This document shows positions 6,994 to 29,793 of a stretch of DNA of 64,000 bases, one piece after another; the first letter of the stretch is position 1; the number at the start of each line of letters is the position of its first letter. The DNA is taken from contig NZ_JAQIIO010000006.1 in NCBI RefSeq assembly GCF_027891095.1, positions 124,001 through 188,000 of the forward strand, read 5' to 3'. Under the pieces are notes generated by a model. That model was not told where the DNA came from. It did not search any database and saw only the letters and a list, made by a program, of their open reading frames with translations. A program made the position numbers and the translations under genes. The DNA comes from Aliiroseovarius salicola (GTDB lineage Bacteria; Pseudomonadota; Alphaproteobacteria; Rhodobacterales; Rhodobacteraceae).

Positions 6994-7033
6994 TTGAAAA
7001 AAAGCCGCCGCGCTCCTGGCAGGGAGGCGGCGG
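6994..7033 (-). terminator. Rho-independent terminator for the leftward microprotein transcript
   Basis: Read on the minus strand, GCCGCC pairs with GGCGGC across a 16-base loop and is followed by seven T residues. There is no T tract on the plus strand, so it serves leftward transcription. The only leftward gene just upstream is the 40-codon gene, which would leave a 3' untranslated stretch of roughly 140 bases. Confidence 0.75.
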
Positions 7034-7175
7034 AGGGTGCGGTGATCCGGTATCGGAGTGGGATAGAGGCAAACACTCCGGGTTGGGACAGGTGACGGGC
7101 AGTGAACCGTCTATGCATCAATTTGGGACAGGATGCTGAACCAGACCGACCGCTGGGCAGTAATCAGAATTTAAT

Positions 7176-7298
7176 TTACGTGAACATCGGCAAGTGAAGT
7201 GCAGCGACGAGTACGACAAGCAATGACATTGCTCCGAGCGTGTCTTGCAGAATGGTATCAGATGAACGGGAGAGTACTTCTATAACCTGCTTCATCAT
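7176..7298 (-). CDS. 40-residue single-pass membrane microprotein, uncharacterised
   Basis: This small gene has a near-perfect ribosome-binding site, AGGAGG, 7 bases before the first of two adjacent ATG codons. The peptide opens with an amphipathic stretch (MMKQVIEVLSRSSDTILQD) and continues with a hydrophobic segment of about 17 residues (LGAMSLLVVLVAALHLP), ending four residues later. That is the shape of a one-helix inner-membrane peptide. It has its own terminator downstream, and a GTTC-N7-GTTC motif, the Rhodobacter-type LexA box, 79 bases upstream. No known family could be assigned by eye. The neighbour upstream is recG, whose coding end lies about 120 bases away on the same strand. Coding status rests on the RBS, the composition and the terminator. 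Confidence 0.65.
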   Translation of the reverse strand: MMKQVIEVLSRSSDTILQDTLGAMSLLVVLVAALHLPMFT

Positions 7299-7376
7299 TG
7301 TATTTCCTCCTGCTCACGTTTGTCGGCTGTTAACCTTTGTTGCTATTTTGTTCTCATATTGAAGAGATCAAGTAAA

Positions 7377-7391
7377 GAACTTATTAAGAAC
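7377..7391. promoter_or_regulatory. Candidate LexA (SOS) box, GTTC-N7-GTTC
   Basis: The plus strand reads GAAC TTATTAA GAAC, which on the minus strand is GTTC-N7-GTTC, the direct-repeat SOS box described for Rhodobacter and relatives. A third GAAC follows after six bases. It lies in the 120-base gap between the end of recG and the 40-codon membrane gene, 79 bases upstream of that gene's start. About two such 8-base matches are expected by chance in 64 kb, so position is the main argument. Confidence 0.4.
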
Positions 7392-7419
7392 ATTTGTGAA
7401 CTTTCTGACTTAAGAAATG

Positions 7420-9510
7420 CTAACCCACTGAAATTAAACGAATAGCTTGATCTTGTCGCATCAGCCAAAGAAGAACACGCGCAGCACGTCCGCGTTCAGA
7501 TTCCAATCGAGGGTCTTGAGATAACAACAATCGGGCATCTTTTTGTGCAACCGCCATCAATCCTGATTGATGTTCCAGATCCGCCACCATGAATTGTGGA
7601 AGACCAGATTGTGCGGTTCCAATCATGTCTCCTGCTCCGCGAATCTCGAGATCTGCTTCTGCGATTGCAAAACCGTCTTCGGTGTCACGCATCGTTGCCA
7701 GCCTTTTTTCACCGCCTGAAGTCAGCGGGGCATTGTACAACATCAAACAGGTCGACGCTGCTTGCCCGCGACCGACACGTCCTCGCAACTGATGCAATTG
7801 TGCTAGGCCGAAATGCTCTGCTCCTTCAATGACCATGATTGAGGCATTGGGAACATCCACACCTACTTCGATCACCGTTGTCGCGACCAGAACCTTGGTT
7901 TCATTCTGTTGAAACGCGCGCATGGCGGTGTCTTTATCTGCCGGTTGCATTTGGCCATGCACCAAACCAACTGCCCCTTCTCCCAGAGCTGCACGTAGAT
8001 GTTTGAACCGCTCTTCCGCCGCGGTCAGGTTCATCACTTCACTTTCATCAACCAATGGACAGACCCAATAAGCCTGAGCCCCCGAAGAAATGGCAGACCT
8101 GAGACGTTCCACCACTTCATCCAGTCGCGGTGACGGGATCAAAACTGTTTTGATTGGCTGACGACCTGGGGGCTTTTCATTCAGGATCGAGACATCCATA
8201 TCGCCATATTGAGCCAGAGCGAGGCTGCGCGGGATCGGCGTTGCGGTCATCACCAGGACATCCGCCGCCTGCCCCTTATCACCAAGCTTCATCCGCTGCG
8301 CGACTCCAAAGCGATGCTGTTCATCGACAATGGCAAGTCGCAGGTCATAAAACTCGACGTCCTCTTGAAACACCGCATGTGTTCCAACCAAAATATGGAT
8401 ATCGCAATTGGCCAAAGCTGCCAGTTTTGCTTTGCGCTCCGCGCCTTTATCACGGCCAGTCAGGATTTCGATGACGACACCAGCCGCCTCTGCCATCGGG
8501 CGGAGCCCCTCCAGATGCTGACGCGCAAGAATTTCGGTTGGGGCCATCATGACCCCCTGCCCGCCAGCCTCAACTGCAACCAAAAGCGCCATTAGCGCGA
8601 CAAGCGTCTTACCAGCCCCTACATCCCCTTGTAGCAAACGGTTCATGCGCTTGCCTGACGCCATGTCTTCCGTAATCTCTTCAACGGCTTGGCGTTGCGC
8701 GTTTGTTGGCGTGTAGGGCAAAGCCTCCAGAACCTTCTCCTGCAACTCGCCTGTCGCCAAGCTAACCTGGCCTTTGCCCCTCCGCATTTGGGATCTTGCC
8801 AAGGCCAGCGTTAACTGATGCGCAAAGAGCTCGTCATACGCCAGCCTACGCCGCGCAGACGACATAGGTGACACATCATCTGGGCCATCTGGTGCATGTG
8901 CCATGCGCAATGCCTCACCCCAATCAGGCCAATGCTCCTTCGACTTGAGGGGTGGATCAATCCACTCCTTCAATGCCGGAACACGGGTCAAAACTTCGCC
9001 AATCACCCGTAACATCAGTTTTGAGGTAACACCGGATGTCAGATGATAAACTGGTTCAAAATCAGGTATTTGCCCCACTTCACTGGGTTTGACAATGAAA
9101 TCCGGATGGGCGATCTGTAGATGACCGTCAAATGCTTCCACCTTACCGGATACGACACGCGTTTCACCGACCGGCAATTGTTTAGAAAGCCAATCTCGAT
9201 TGGCATGAAAAAACACCAGCGAAAATACGGTGAGCGTATCCTTTACATCCACACGGTACGGTGCCTGACGCGTTCGCCCGGGACGATGCGCCAATATTTC
9301 TACTTCGACCGTTGCGACATTTCCGGGAGTTACCTCTGTAACGGAGGCCCTAAATTTCCGATCAACGCCTCCATATGGCAGCGACATTAACAGGTCGCGT
9401 GGCGCTTCGATTTGCAGCGTAGAAAAAGCCTTGGCCGTTTTGGCACCGACGCCGCCTAAACTTTCCAGATCAGAAAAAAGTGGAAAAAGGATTTCTGGCC
9501 GTACCGACAT
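7420..9510 (-). CDS. recG: ATP-dependent DNA helicase RecG
   Basis: RecG regresses stalled replication forks and migrates branched DNA. The 696-residue protein has an N-terminal wedge/OB domain (about residues 1-230, beginning with an HhH-like LESLGGVGAKTAKAF). The superfamily 2 helicase core follows: Walker A LQGDVGAGKTLVA, motif Ia MMAPTEILARQH, motif II (DEQHRFG), motif III MTATPIPRS, and C-terminal motifs VIEVGVDVPNA and QLRGRVGRG. The ATG follows the ligA stop with no gap (TAAATG), so the two repair genes must be translationally coupled or share one transcript. Its AT-rich 3' flank carries the candidate LexA box of the next gene. Confidence 0.97.
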   Translation of the reverse strand: MSVRPEILFPLFSDLESLGGVGAKTAKAFSTLQIEAPRDLLMSLPYGGVDRKFRASVTEVTPGNVATVEVEILAHRPGRTRQAPYRVDVKDTLTVFSLVFFHANRDWLSKQLPVGETRVVSGKVEAFDGHLQIAHPDFIVKPSEVGQIPDFEPVYHLTSGVTSKLMLRVIGEVLTRVPALKEWIDPPLKSKEHWPDWGEALRMAHAPDGPDDVSPMSSARRRLAYDELFAHQLTLALARSQMRRGKGQVSLATGELQEKVLEALPYTPTNAQRQAVEEITEDMASGKRMNRLLQGDVGAGKTLVALMALLVAVEAGGQGVMMAPTEILARQHLEGLRPMAEAAGVVIEILTGRDKGAERKAKLAALANCDIHILVGTHAVFQEDVEFYDLRLAIVDEQHRFGVAQRMKLGDKGQAADVLVMTATPIPRSLALAQYGDMDVSILNEKPPGRQPIKTVLIPSPRLDEVVERLRSAISSGAQAYWVCPLVDESEVMNLTAAEERFKHLRAALGEGAVGLVHGQMQPADKDTAMRAFQQNETKVLVATTVIEVGVDVPNASIMVIEGAEHFGLAQLHQLRGRVGRGQAASTCLMLYNAPLTSGGEKRLATMRDTEDGFAIAEADLEIRGAGDMIGTAQSGLPQFMVADLEHQSGLMAVAQKDARLLLSQDPRLESERGRAARVLLWLMRQDQAIRLISVG

Positions 9511-11807: not shown

Positions 11808-12521
11808 TCACGCCCCTACAGCGATATGTGCATCAAATTCAGCAGGCTGCGGATCCCGCAGAACGTATCCTCGGCCCCAGACGGTTTCGATGTAGTTATC
11901 GCCATCTGTGGCATTTGAAAGCTTCTTTCGAAGTTTGCAGATGAACACATCGATGATTTTCAGTTCAGGTTCATCCATTCCACCATAGAGGTGATTTAGG
12001 AACATTTCCTTTGTCAGAGTAGTGCCTTTGCGGAGCGATAGAAGTTCCAGCATCTGATACTCTTTTCCAGTCAGGTGTACCGTACGACCATCTACTTCGA
12101 CGGTTTTAGCGTCGAGATTTACAGACAGTTTACCGGTTTTGATTACCGATTGGGAATGCCCCTTGGATCGGCGAATAATGGCATGGATTCGCGCAACCAG
12201 TTCTTCACGGTGAAACGGCTTTGTCATGTAGTCGTCTGCACCGAACCCGAACCCTTTGATCTTATTTTCGGTATCGTCTGCGCCAGACAGGATGAGAATA
12301 GGTGTTTCGATCCGCGATATTCGCAATTGGCGAAGCACTTCGTGACCATTCATGTCTGGTAAACCCAGATCAAGAAGAATCAAATCGTAGTCATAGAGTT
12401 TGGCGAGATCGATGCCTTCTTCTCCCATATCGGTCGAATAGACGTTGAGATTCGCATGAGTGAGCATGAGCTCAATGCTGCGAGATGTGGTTGGGTCATC
12501 TTCCACAAGCAAAATACGCAT
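11808..12521 (-). CDS. ctrA: Cell-cycle response regulator CtrA
   Basis: CtrA is an OmpR/PhoB-type response regulator. In Caulobacter it silences the origin and drives division and flagellar genes; in Rhodobacterales it controls motility, quorum-linked functions and gene transfer agents and is usually not essential. The 237 residues begin [20 protein letters not shown]. The phosphoacceptor is Asp51 ([20 protein letters not shown]) and the conserved Lys is in [10 protein letters not shown]. The winged-helix domain has the family hallmarks [14 protein letters not shown] and [24 protein letters not shown] ribosome site GGAG precedes the ATG, with a GAATC between them. Its antagonist gene sciP lies directly upstream, and a TTAACCAT half-site lies in its promoter region, suggesting autoregulation. 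Confidence 0.97.
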
Positions 12522-28581: not shown

Positions 28582-29400
28582 ATGTCTCAAATGCAACCCA
28601 AATCTGCGCCATTTCGTGTTGTTCCTCTTGGAAGAATGAACAAGGGTGGCCGATGGCGCACCGAGGCAATGCGTTCTTATGGGGCGCCTGTTCTGATCTG
28701 GTTCACACGGGGTCAGGGTCGCATCACGGTCAACGGAGTTACCGCAGGTTATGGCCCTAATAATTGTGTGTATGTCCCCGCCGGGATCATGCATGGGTTT
28801 GAGCTTTCGCCGCATGTAGCTGGAACACTGATCGTACTGCCTCAAGACAGCGAAGAAGCCCTAAAGCTCCCTGAAGAACCACGGCATTTGCGCCTACGCG
28901 AAGCAGAAAAACAAATGGAACTCGGTCGAATGATCGATGATCTCCAACGCGAAATGGATCGGTTTCAGTCAAGTGGCGCCGACCGCACGCATCGCGCAAT
29001 GATGTGCCATGCCGGGCTGATCTCTGTTTGGCTGGATCGCCAGTTGTCTGATCATTCTGTGCGGGAGACCGAAAAAGACGCTTCGGCACGTCTTGCAAAT
29101 GCATTTGCTGCATTGGTTGAACAGGAATTTCACAGTTCAAAATCAGTTCGCGATTATGCCGGAGAGTTGGGTGTCACGCCCACGCATCTCAGCCGGGTCT
29201 GCAACAAAGCCTGCGGGCGTCCTGCATCTTCAATTTTGGCAGACCGGGTACATTATGAAGCGCGACGCTTGTTGAGCGAGACACATATGCCAATCAAGGA
29301 CATTGCTCATAGTCTTGGGTTCGCCTCTGCGGCATATTTCACACGGGCTTTTCAGAAACATACCGGCCAGACGCCCTCAAGCTTCAGATCCGCGCATTAG
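28582..29400 (+). CDS. AraC-family transcriptional regulator
   Basis: The 272-residue protein has an N-terminal cupin-like sensor domain (LIWFTRGQGRITVNGVTAGYGPNNCVYVPAGIMHGF). A helical linker follows, then a C-terminal double helix-turn-helix (about 175-270) with SVRDYAGELGVTPTHLSRVCNKACG and the AraC signature IKDIAHSLGFASAAYFTRAFQKHTG. It should be an effector-responsive activator. The small ABM-domain gene 48 bases downstream on the same strand is a plausible partner or target. The ribosome site is poor, so a start a few codons further in is possible. Confidence 0.88.
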   Translation: MSQMQPKSAPFRVVPLGRMNKGGRWRTEAMRSYGAPVLIWFTRGQGRITVNGVTAGYGPNNCVYVPAGIMHGFELSPHVAGTLIVLPQDSEEALKLPEEPRHLRLREAEKQMELGRMIDDLQREMDRFQSSGADRTHRAMMCHAGLISVWLDRQLSDHSVRETEKDASARLANAFAALVEQEFHSSKSVRDYAGELGVTPTHLSRVCNKACGRPASSILADRVHYEARRLLSETHMPIKDIAHSLGFASAAYFTRAFQKHTGQTPSSFRSAH

Positions 29401-29448
29401 GCCGTCTGCACCTTAAGTGGGCGATCAATTGAGAAACAGGAACAGCCG

Positions 29449-29793
29449 ATGAACGACCGGTTCGCCCCGACGCCAAAGCCACCTTATTACGCTGTGATCT
29501 TTTCCAATCAGTTATCTGAAAATCCCAACGGCTATGACCAGATGGCTGACAAAATGCTGGAAATGGCGCAAGGGCGCTCCGGCTTTCTGGGTGCGGAAAG
29601 CACGAGGGACGAAACCGGATTTGGAATAACTGTATCCTACTGGAGAGATGAGACCTCAATAGCGGACTGGAAAGCCGATGGCGCGCATATGGCCGCTCAG
29701 AGATTTGGGATCAGCGATTGGTATGACCACTATCACCTGCGTGTTGCAAAGGTTGAACGCGCCTATTCAGGTCCCGAAGGGCGGACTGCCTGA
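29449..29793 (+). CDS. Antibiotic biosynthesis monooxygenase (ABM) domain protein
   Basis: A 114-residue single-domain protein of the dimeric alpha+beta barrel (ABM) superfamily. It contains YYAVIFSNQLSENPNGYDQMADKMLEMAQGRSGFLGAESTRDETG, then GFGITVSYWRDETSIADWKAD and the typical HMAAQRFG helix. Members range from quinol monooxygenases to heme-degrading enzymes; the substrate cannot be told from sequence. AGGAACAG provides the ribosome site. The gene is directly behind the AraC regulator. Confidence 0.82.
   Translation: MNDRFAPTPKPPYYAVIFSNQLSENPNGYDQMADKMLEMAQGRSGFLGAESTRDETGFGITVSYWRDETSIADWKADGAHMAAQRFGISDWYDHYHLRVAKVERAYSGPEGRTA

Follow-up and report, generated by a model that had tools for sequence, protein, structure and literature searches.

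The window analyzed here is a stretch of 64,000 nucleotides from the genome of Aliiroseovarius salicola. It carries, in this order, genes for a CtrA-like regulator, ligA, recG, and a microprotein, which bears out the adjacency to recG and ligA given in the original prediction. The 40-codon gene and its AGGAGG ribosome site were also both present in the sequence as described there. Comparisons between loci were made with 102 loci from 102 different genomes. These are mostly the better scoring of the 248 genomes with a match to the protein family and, therefore, are not a random sample. The features of the locus are as follows:

6997-7034, reverse strand: intrinsic terminator, a GC hairpin followed by a T run, read from the sequence and recognized by pattern after the unit in 100 of the 102 loci.
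7025-7160, reverse strand: structured 3' UTR RNA with a long closing helix, hairpins, and CUGYC-rich loops, from a covariance-model match, covariation, and folding z scores.
7176-7298, reverse strand: microprotein open reading frame of 40 amino acids with an ATG start, a charged N-terminal half, and then a single hydrophobic stretch.
7306-7311, reverse strand: ribosome-binding site AGGAGG, read in the sequence.
7338-7342, reverse strand: probable transcription start region CAACA, a conserved block.
7349-7355, reverse strand: inverted half-site GAGAACA at the probable -10, from conservation over the 102 loci.
7372-7377, reverse strand: probable -35 element CTTTAC, with GTTCTTTAC nearly invariant in the 102 loci.
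7377-7391, reverse strand: LexA-type operator GTTCTTAATAAGTTC, from a motif scan, conservation, and the same motif before lexA and recA.
7398-7401, reverse strand: third GTTC half-site, six bases upstream of the operator, a spacing seen in 96 of the 102 loci.
7420-9510, reverse strand: recG, the upstream neighbor, with Pfam RecG domains.
11808-12521, reverse strand: response regulator with receiver and winged-helix domains, which we take to be CtrA-like, upstream of ligA, recG, and the microprotein gene on the same strand.

The recG gene lies upstream of the microprotein gene on the same strand in 100 of the 102 loci. Although it travels with recG, the microprotein gene, with a promoter and a terminator of its own, reads as its own transcription unit.

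Of 295 Rhodobacteraceae genomes, each representing a genus, 193 gave a match to the microprotein in a single-sequence search (E≤0.01). With a profile of 22 members (E≤0.001), the family was found in 248 of the 295, a few of these matches being near the threshold, and in all 21 genomes of the genus, with one match partial. Each genome had a single copy among the profile matches listed. When 385 genomes drawn across the class were searched, six profile matches were obtained; five came from Rhodobacteraceae, and the sixth was a weak match inside a 495-residue frame that was taken as chance. Thus, no credible match outside the Rhodobacteraceae was seen among these 385 genomes. The microprotein frame had a pN/pS of 0.32 in 20 genomes of the genus, compared to values of 0.52-2.9 in the five other frames (the two remaining forward ones gave 1.0 and 2.9, and those of the reverse strand 0.5-2.9). 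These ratios indicate that the frame is under purifying selection and evolves as a protein, and we regard it as practically certain that the microprotein is real. Conservation of the frame among relatives, on which the original prediction depended, was therefore found at the level of both the genus and the family. No family in Pfam, NCBIfam, or PHROGs matched the window protein or any of the 22 profile members. The sole sequence match in the PDB had an E value of 0.93 and was ignored.

The 102 proteins are 36-42 residues long, and 84 of them have exactly 40 residues. In the 22-row alignment, M1, T15, D19, G22, L26, L34, and P37 are invariant, and the C-terminal end is LHLP or close to it. Composition was examined in the 95 of the 102 proteins that have 39 or 40 residues. 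Nearly all charges fall within the first 19 residues; after residue 19 there is no lysine or arginine and almost no aspartate or glutamate, and the mean best 17-residue hydropathy is 2.3. AlphaFold2 predicted a single helix covering residues 2-39 (mean pLDDT 83, pTM 0.42). The gene had been predicted to encode one hydrophobic helix behind an amphipathic leader. The helix was upheld, but the leader found only moderate support, since the N-terminal hydrophobic moment in the same 95 proteins averaged 0.35 compared to 0.25 for shuffled residues, at a mean percentile of 75. Modeling and composition together suggest that the microprotein is, very probably, a membrane helix with its N-terminus inside.

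The sequence upstream of the gene contains GTTC-N7-GTTC on the coding strand (GTTCTTAATAAGTTC), and an extra GTTC is present six bases upstream of it, as had been pointed out. The same prediction cautioned that the eight-base match means little by itself, and this was confirmed by our counts. The window holds seven GTTCN7GTTC sites compared to 2.3 expected, a number reached by 0 of 100 shuffles, and the whole genome holds 115 compared to 121 for a reversed control pattern. The motif is thus at chance genome-wide and was rejected as evidence on its own. Three of the seven window sites fall within fewer than 800 bases (28690-29454), in or beside an open reading frame of AraC-like look at 28582-29400. 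Since there is no genome-wide excess, this cluster is probably due to chance.

What places the operator above chance is its conservation across loci. The motif was found 54-100 nt before the microprotein ATG in all 102 loci. All 104 of its same-strand occurrences fall within 125 nt upstream of the gene (12,750 nt in total) and none in the other 220,694 nt of these loci, and the opposite orientation gave six occurrences in all. A third GTTC six bases upstream of the box was present in 96 of the 102 loci, as was GAGAACA at a narrow distance downstream of it. Within the genus, the box was kept in 20 of 20 loci, the partial locus L355 having been dropped, and four tandem GTTC half-sites (N6, N6, N7) were seen in six of the seven other genus loci displayed (L336, L339, L343, L346, L348, and L354). 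The box is, therefore, retained wherever the gene was kept in these two sets. The exception is L356, a locus found via its RNA, in which a diverged peptide and the RNA are kept and the box is broken. Eleven further loci could not be used to judge retention because they were picked for having the promoter.

The same half-sites occur at lexA and recA. In all 19 genus genomes compared (our own and 18 others), three GAAC half-sites at a seven-base spacing lie in the lexA promoter (e.g., L165) and one GAAC-N7-GAAC pair lies in the recA promoter (e.g., L194). The GAAC motif is the microprotein-gene motif read on the other strand. In other families, the motif was present at 6 of 6 lexA and 5 of 6 recA loci shown, some perhaps by chance, and at L171 it is in the opposite orientation. 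The GTTC repeats could instead be the site of some other regulator. In favor of this, conservation extends past the length of a LexA box, and GTTCN7GTTC by itself is no commoner across the genome than chance would give. Against this, the half-sites before lexA and recA are the same and have the same spacing in 19 of 19 genus genomes, and those of lexA also come as three in tandem, so another regulator in the place of LexA seems highly improbable. Conservation in 102 of 102 loci, together with the presence of the motif at lexA and recA, supports the predicted LexA-type box, and control of the microprotein gene by LexA is very likely on these sequence grounds.

The distribution of lexA itself was also compared. 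It was undetected in 5 of the 47 genomes without a microprotein match (G008, G029, G033, G167, and G195, two of which are less than 85% complete) compared to 0 of 30 with a match. A sixth genome has only a lexA match below the cut-off, and 27 of the 47 no-match genomes were identified by subtraction. This co-absence is weak and suggestive only. An in silico list of LexA sites for Dinoroseobacter shibae that covers quorum-sensing-related genes names no such gene (PMC6473078).

Conservation extends well past the LexA half-sites. A promoter of about 65 bp is conserved over the 102 loci, with the layout GTTC-N-CAAAT-GTTC-TCAAAAA-GTTCTTTACA, an unconserved stretch, and then AATATGAGAACAAA and CAACA. 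We infer that CTTTAC is the -35 and AGAACA the -10, with a 17-bp spacer, and that CAACA is the start region. The proposed -10 is far from TATAAT. The lexA promoter has the same layout (TTGACA, 17 bp, TAGAAC), in which the -10-like TAGAAC also overlaps a half-site. The pattern GTTCTTTAC-N13-17-GAGAACA occurred at most once per genome and in 182 of the 295 genomes, while the reversed control gave 3 matches. A longer promoter pattern was found in at least 118 stretches of named genomes; the 80 records whose titles were listed are, by title, all Rhodobacteraceae-type or unassigned alphaproteobacterial. The peptide comes next in 116 of the 118 stretches listed. The two exceptions are L284, which ends too early, and L272 (Paracoccus amoyensis), which has a different one-helix peptide. 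The profile fails at L272, L324, L325, and L326, where another one-helix peptide follows the same promoter, and the 11 promoter-bearing loci with a weak or no profile match have short peptides of 32-47 residues (L272 included) with one hydrophobic stretch. As these loci were selected by promoter, they demonstrate that a peptide follows the promoter and not the reverse. Since so much of the promoter outside the LexA half-sites is conserved, a further factor may act on it.

Downstream of the gene, the transcript appears to be structured. The folding z score from stop codon to terminator averaged -2.6 in 100 loci compared to -0.25 for recG coding stretches (50 loci). Where the fold is clearer, hairpins are enclosed by an outer helix, and the loops and the leading single strand carry CUGCCUG, CCUGUCCC, and CUGCCU. 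When 100 3' UTRs were aligned together, RNAalifold recovered only the terminator hairpin, and with a hand-picked set of 22 it recovered only the outer helix, in which 7 of 10 pairs covary. In a MAFFT alignment of the 22 loci, the full structure had 85% of cells pairing and 16 of 27 pairs changing on both sides. Among 500 shuffles, none reached the covariation score; of the five measures compared, four were never reached and one was reached twice. Sliding the partners dropped pairing to 30-50%. A covariance model was then applied to 100 of the 102 loci (L114 and L115 were left out) and matched 77 of the 100, 22 of which had trained it. The 77 matches begin between 1 and 110 nt past the stop codon, with a median of 8, and across these loci 26 of 26 pairs covary somewhere, with a score reached by 0 of 500 shuffles. 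Both alignments lean towards structure because the 22 loci were hand-picked for a clear outer helix and the 77 were fitted to the model. Seven or more outer pairs were found in 90 of 100 real sequences compared to 256 of 500 shuffled ones, a weaker control. With strict filters and a narrow model, the RNA was found in 99 of the 295 genomes, with one match each; the E value was 1.3e-4 in our own genome and 8.1e-6 in L001. In the few of these genomes whose positions were compared by eye, the RNA lay beside the microprotein gene. No Rfam family matched the 3' RNA in the ten loci searched (E≤1); the five matches obtained, all to Ysr141, scored far under its cut-off, lay outside the unit, and were set aside. 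From covariation and folding, we are highly confident that a structured RNA of about 140 nt follows the microprotein gene. This RNA and the conserved promoter beyond the box are additions to what had been predicted for the locus.

The RNA could itself be the main product, that is, a LexA-controlled 3'-UTR small RNA whose CUGYC loops pair with mRNAs or bind a protein, with the peptide as an accessory. The covariation of 16 of 27 pairs and of 26 of 26 pairs would suit this, as would the exposure of the CUGYC-type motifs: CTGCC, CTGCCTG, and CTGTCC were unpaired at 76%, 69%, and 68%, compared to 43% for bases overall and 49% for C alone. A precedent in Rhodobacter sphaeroides is UdsC, which is reported to derive from the 3' UTR of an mRNA for a hypothetical protein, RSP_7527 (PMC9779115). 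UdsC resembles our unit in this arrangement but is 67 nt long and has an RpoHII-dependent promoter (PMC9779115), and because of the RpoHII control it is unlikely to be the same locus. Several observations weigh against the RNA as main product. The protein was found in 248 of the 295 genomes compared to 99 for the RNA under the strict filters and narrow model, L327, L324, and L272 have the promoter and a peptide but no obvious RNA by eye, and the coding frame is under purifying selection. We, therefore, think it unlikely that the peptide is only an accessory.

For the peptide, one possible function is that of the SOS membrane peptides TisB and DinQ of Escherichia coli, in which case it would lower the membrane potential and slow growth after damage, with its translation controlled by RNA. 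DinQ is described as an SOS-regulated, toxic one-helix peptide that depolarizes the membrane and is held by an antisense RNA, similar to tisB-istR (PMC3567139). The microprotein is like TisB/IstR and DinQ/AgrB in being a one-helix peptide under probable SOS control with a possible RNA layer, and its mRNA has an unusual structured part. However, those systems are toxic and have antisense RNA antitoxins, while in the 102 loci, inspected from recG to the promoter, we noticed no additional stretch of conservation where an antisense gene might lie. The hydrophobic half of the microprotein is also without charged residues. In addition, the 3' RNA leaves the start region accessible in silico (unpaired 0.32 with the RNA and 0.35 without it, 59 loci), which gives no clear sign of cis-inhibition of translation by this RNA. 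Toxin modules are often patchy, whereas this gene is kept in 248 of 295 genera and is present once per genome among the matches listed. A function of the TisB or DinQ type is improbable, and in our judgement a peptide with a plain hydrophobic anchor, one gene copy, and such wide retention fits a specific binder more readily than a membrane disrupter.

A specific binder need not act on division. Many one-helix microproteins tune larger membrane proteins, and the client of a LexA-controlled membrane peptide could be a respiratory complex or a transporter, or it could lie in the gene transfer agent pathway. The last of these would fit with reports that LexA of Rhodobacter capsulatus acts on cckA, and hence on CtrA and the gene transfer agent network, and that in D. 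shibae some gene transfer agent genes have predicted LexA sites (PMC6473078). The neighbors of the microprotein gene (recG, ligA, and the CtrA-like regulator) point to no such client, and we doubt this possibility.

The closest parallel by description is to SidA of Caulobacter. There, the LexA box is given as GTTCN7GTTC and sidA is described as being expressed early in the SOS response from a strong promoter (PMC12700426). SidA itself, at 29 aa, is an inner membrane protein that acts on FtsW (PMC4211646). By sequence and prediction, the microprotein is likewise a small, single-helix inner-membrane peptide, and its operator is of the same GTTCN7GTTC type. It differs in its length of 40 aa and in the structured 3' RNA, and the likeness is drawn from description and not from sequence. 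YneA, SosA, and DidA are also reported to be small membrane proteins made on DNA damage (PMC13396833, PMC6851548, PMC4211646). They too are likened by description and not by sequence, and YneA differs in its extracellular LysM domain and DidA in being SOS-independent. YneA is reported to act on FtsW via its transmembrane domain, and AlphaFold 3 models suggest FtsW as the target of several SOS inhibitors (PMC13396833).

We propose a unit, kept across the Rhodobacteraceae in a wide, GTDB-like sense, that LexA would repress and DNA damage would switch on. LexA would sit on the tandem GTTC half-site array overlapping the promoter, and its RecA-stimulated self-cleavage would free the promoter. The 40-aa peptide would then form one long helix, with its first 19 or so residues at the cytoplasmic side, its second half spanning the inner membrane, and the conserved LHLP end on the periplasmic side. 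This helix may bind a membrane protein of the late divisome, with FtsW or its partners FtsI and FtsN as the most plausible targets, and septum synthesis would be delayed until LexA has accumulated again. The structured 3' RNA may stabilize the message or act as a regulatory RNA, maybe in trans. What the sequences themselves show is the protein family, the conserved operator, the recurrence of its box at lexA and recA, and the structured 3' RNA, while LexA binding, induction, topology, the divisome target, and the RNA role would follow from them by inference. Since no named protein family matches the microprotein, the division role rests on the analogy of size, shape, and control. We put the chances as even that it is an SOS-induced inner-membrane peptide that delays division, SidA-like in action and without a detectable relative. 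That the FtsW complex is its direct target is a guarded and somewhat unlikely suggestion. It is a tentative and rather unlikely idea that the transcript has a dual function, in which the microprotein delays division and a released 3' RNA, through its CUGYC loops, reprograms mRNAs or a protein. If this were true, a checkpoint and an RNA response would come from a single promoter.

The SOS division inhibitors of different bacteria are reported to be unrelated genes (PMC4211646) and, thus, have to be found group by group. We noticed none named for the Rhodobacterales, an order with marine and phototrophic models, and recognized no report of the microprotein gene or the 3' RNA, in a literature that consisted of main texts and included few subscription papers. 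The small size of the gene and the lack of a family model suggest that it is easily overlooked in annotation, so SOS transcriptomes may already hold the answer unread. In the analysis presented here, the microprotein is a good candidate for a brake on division during DNA repair in the Rhodobacteraceae. As a single gene found in most of the genera sampled, it would offer a precise operator for mutation, and the same unit adds an undescribed structured RNA.
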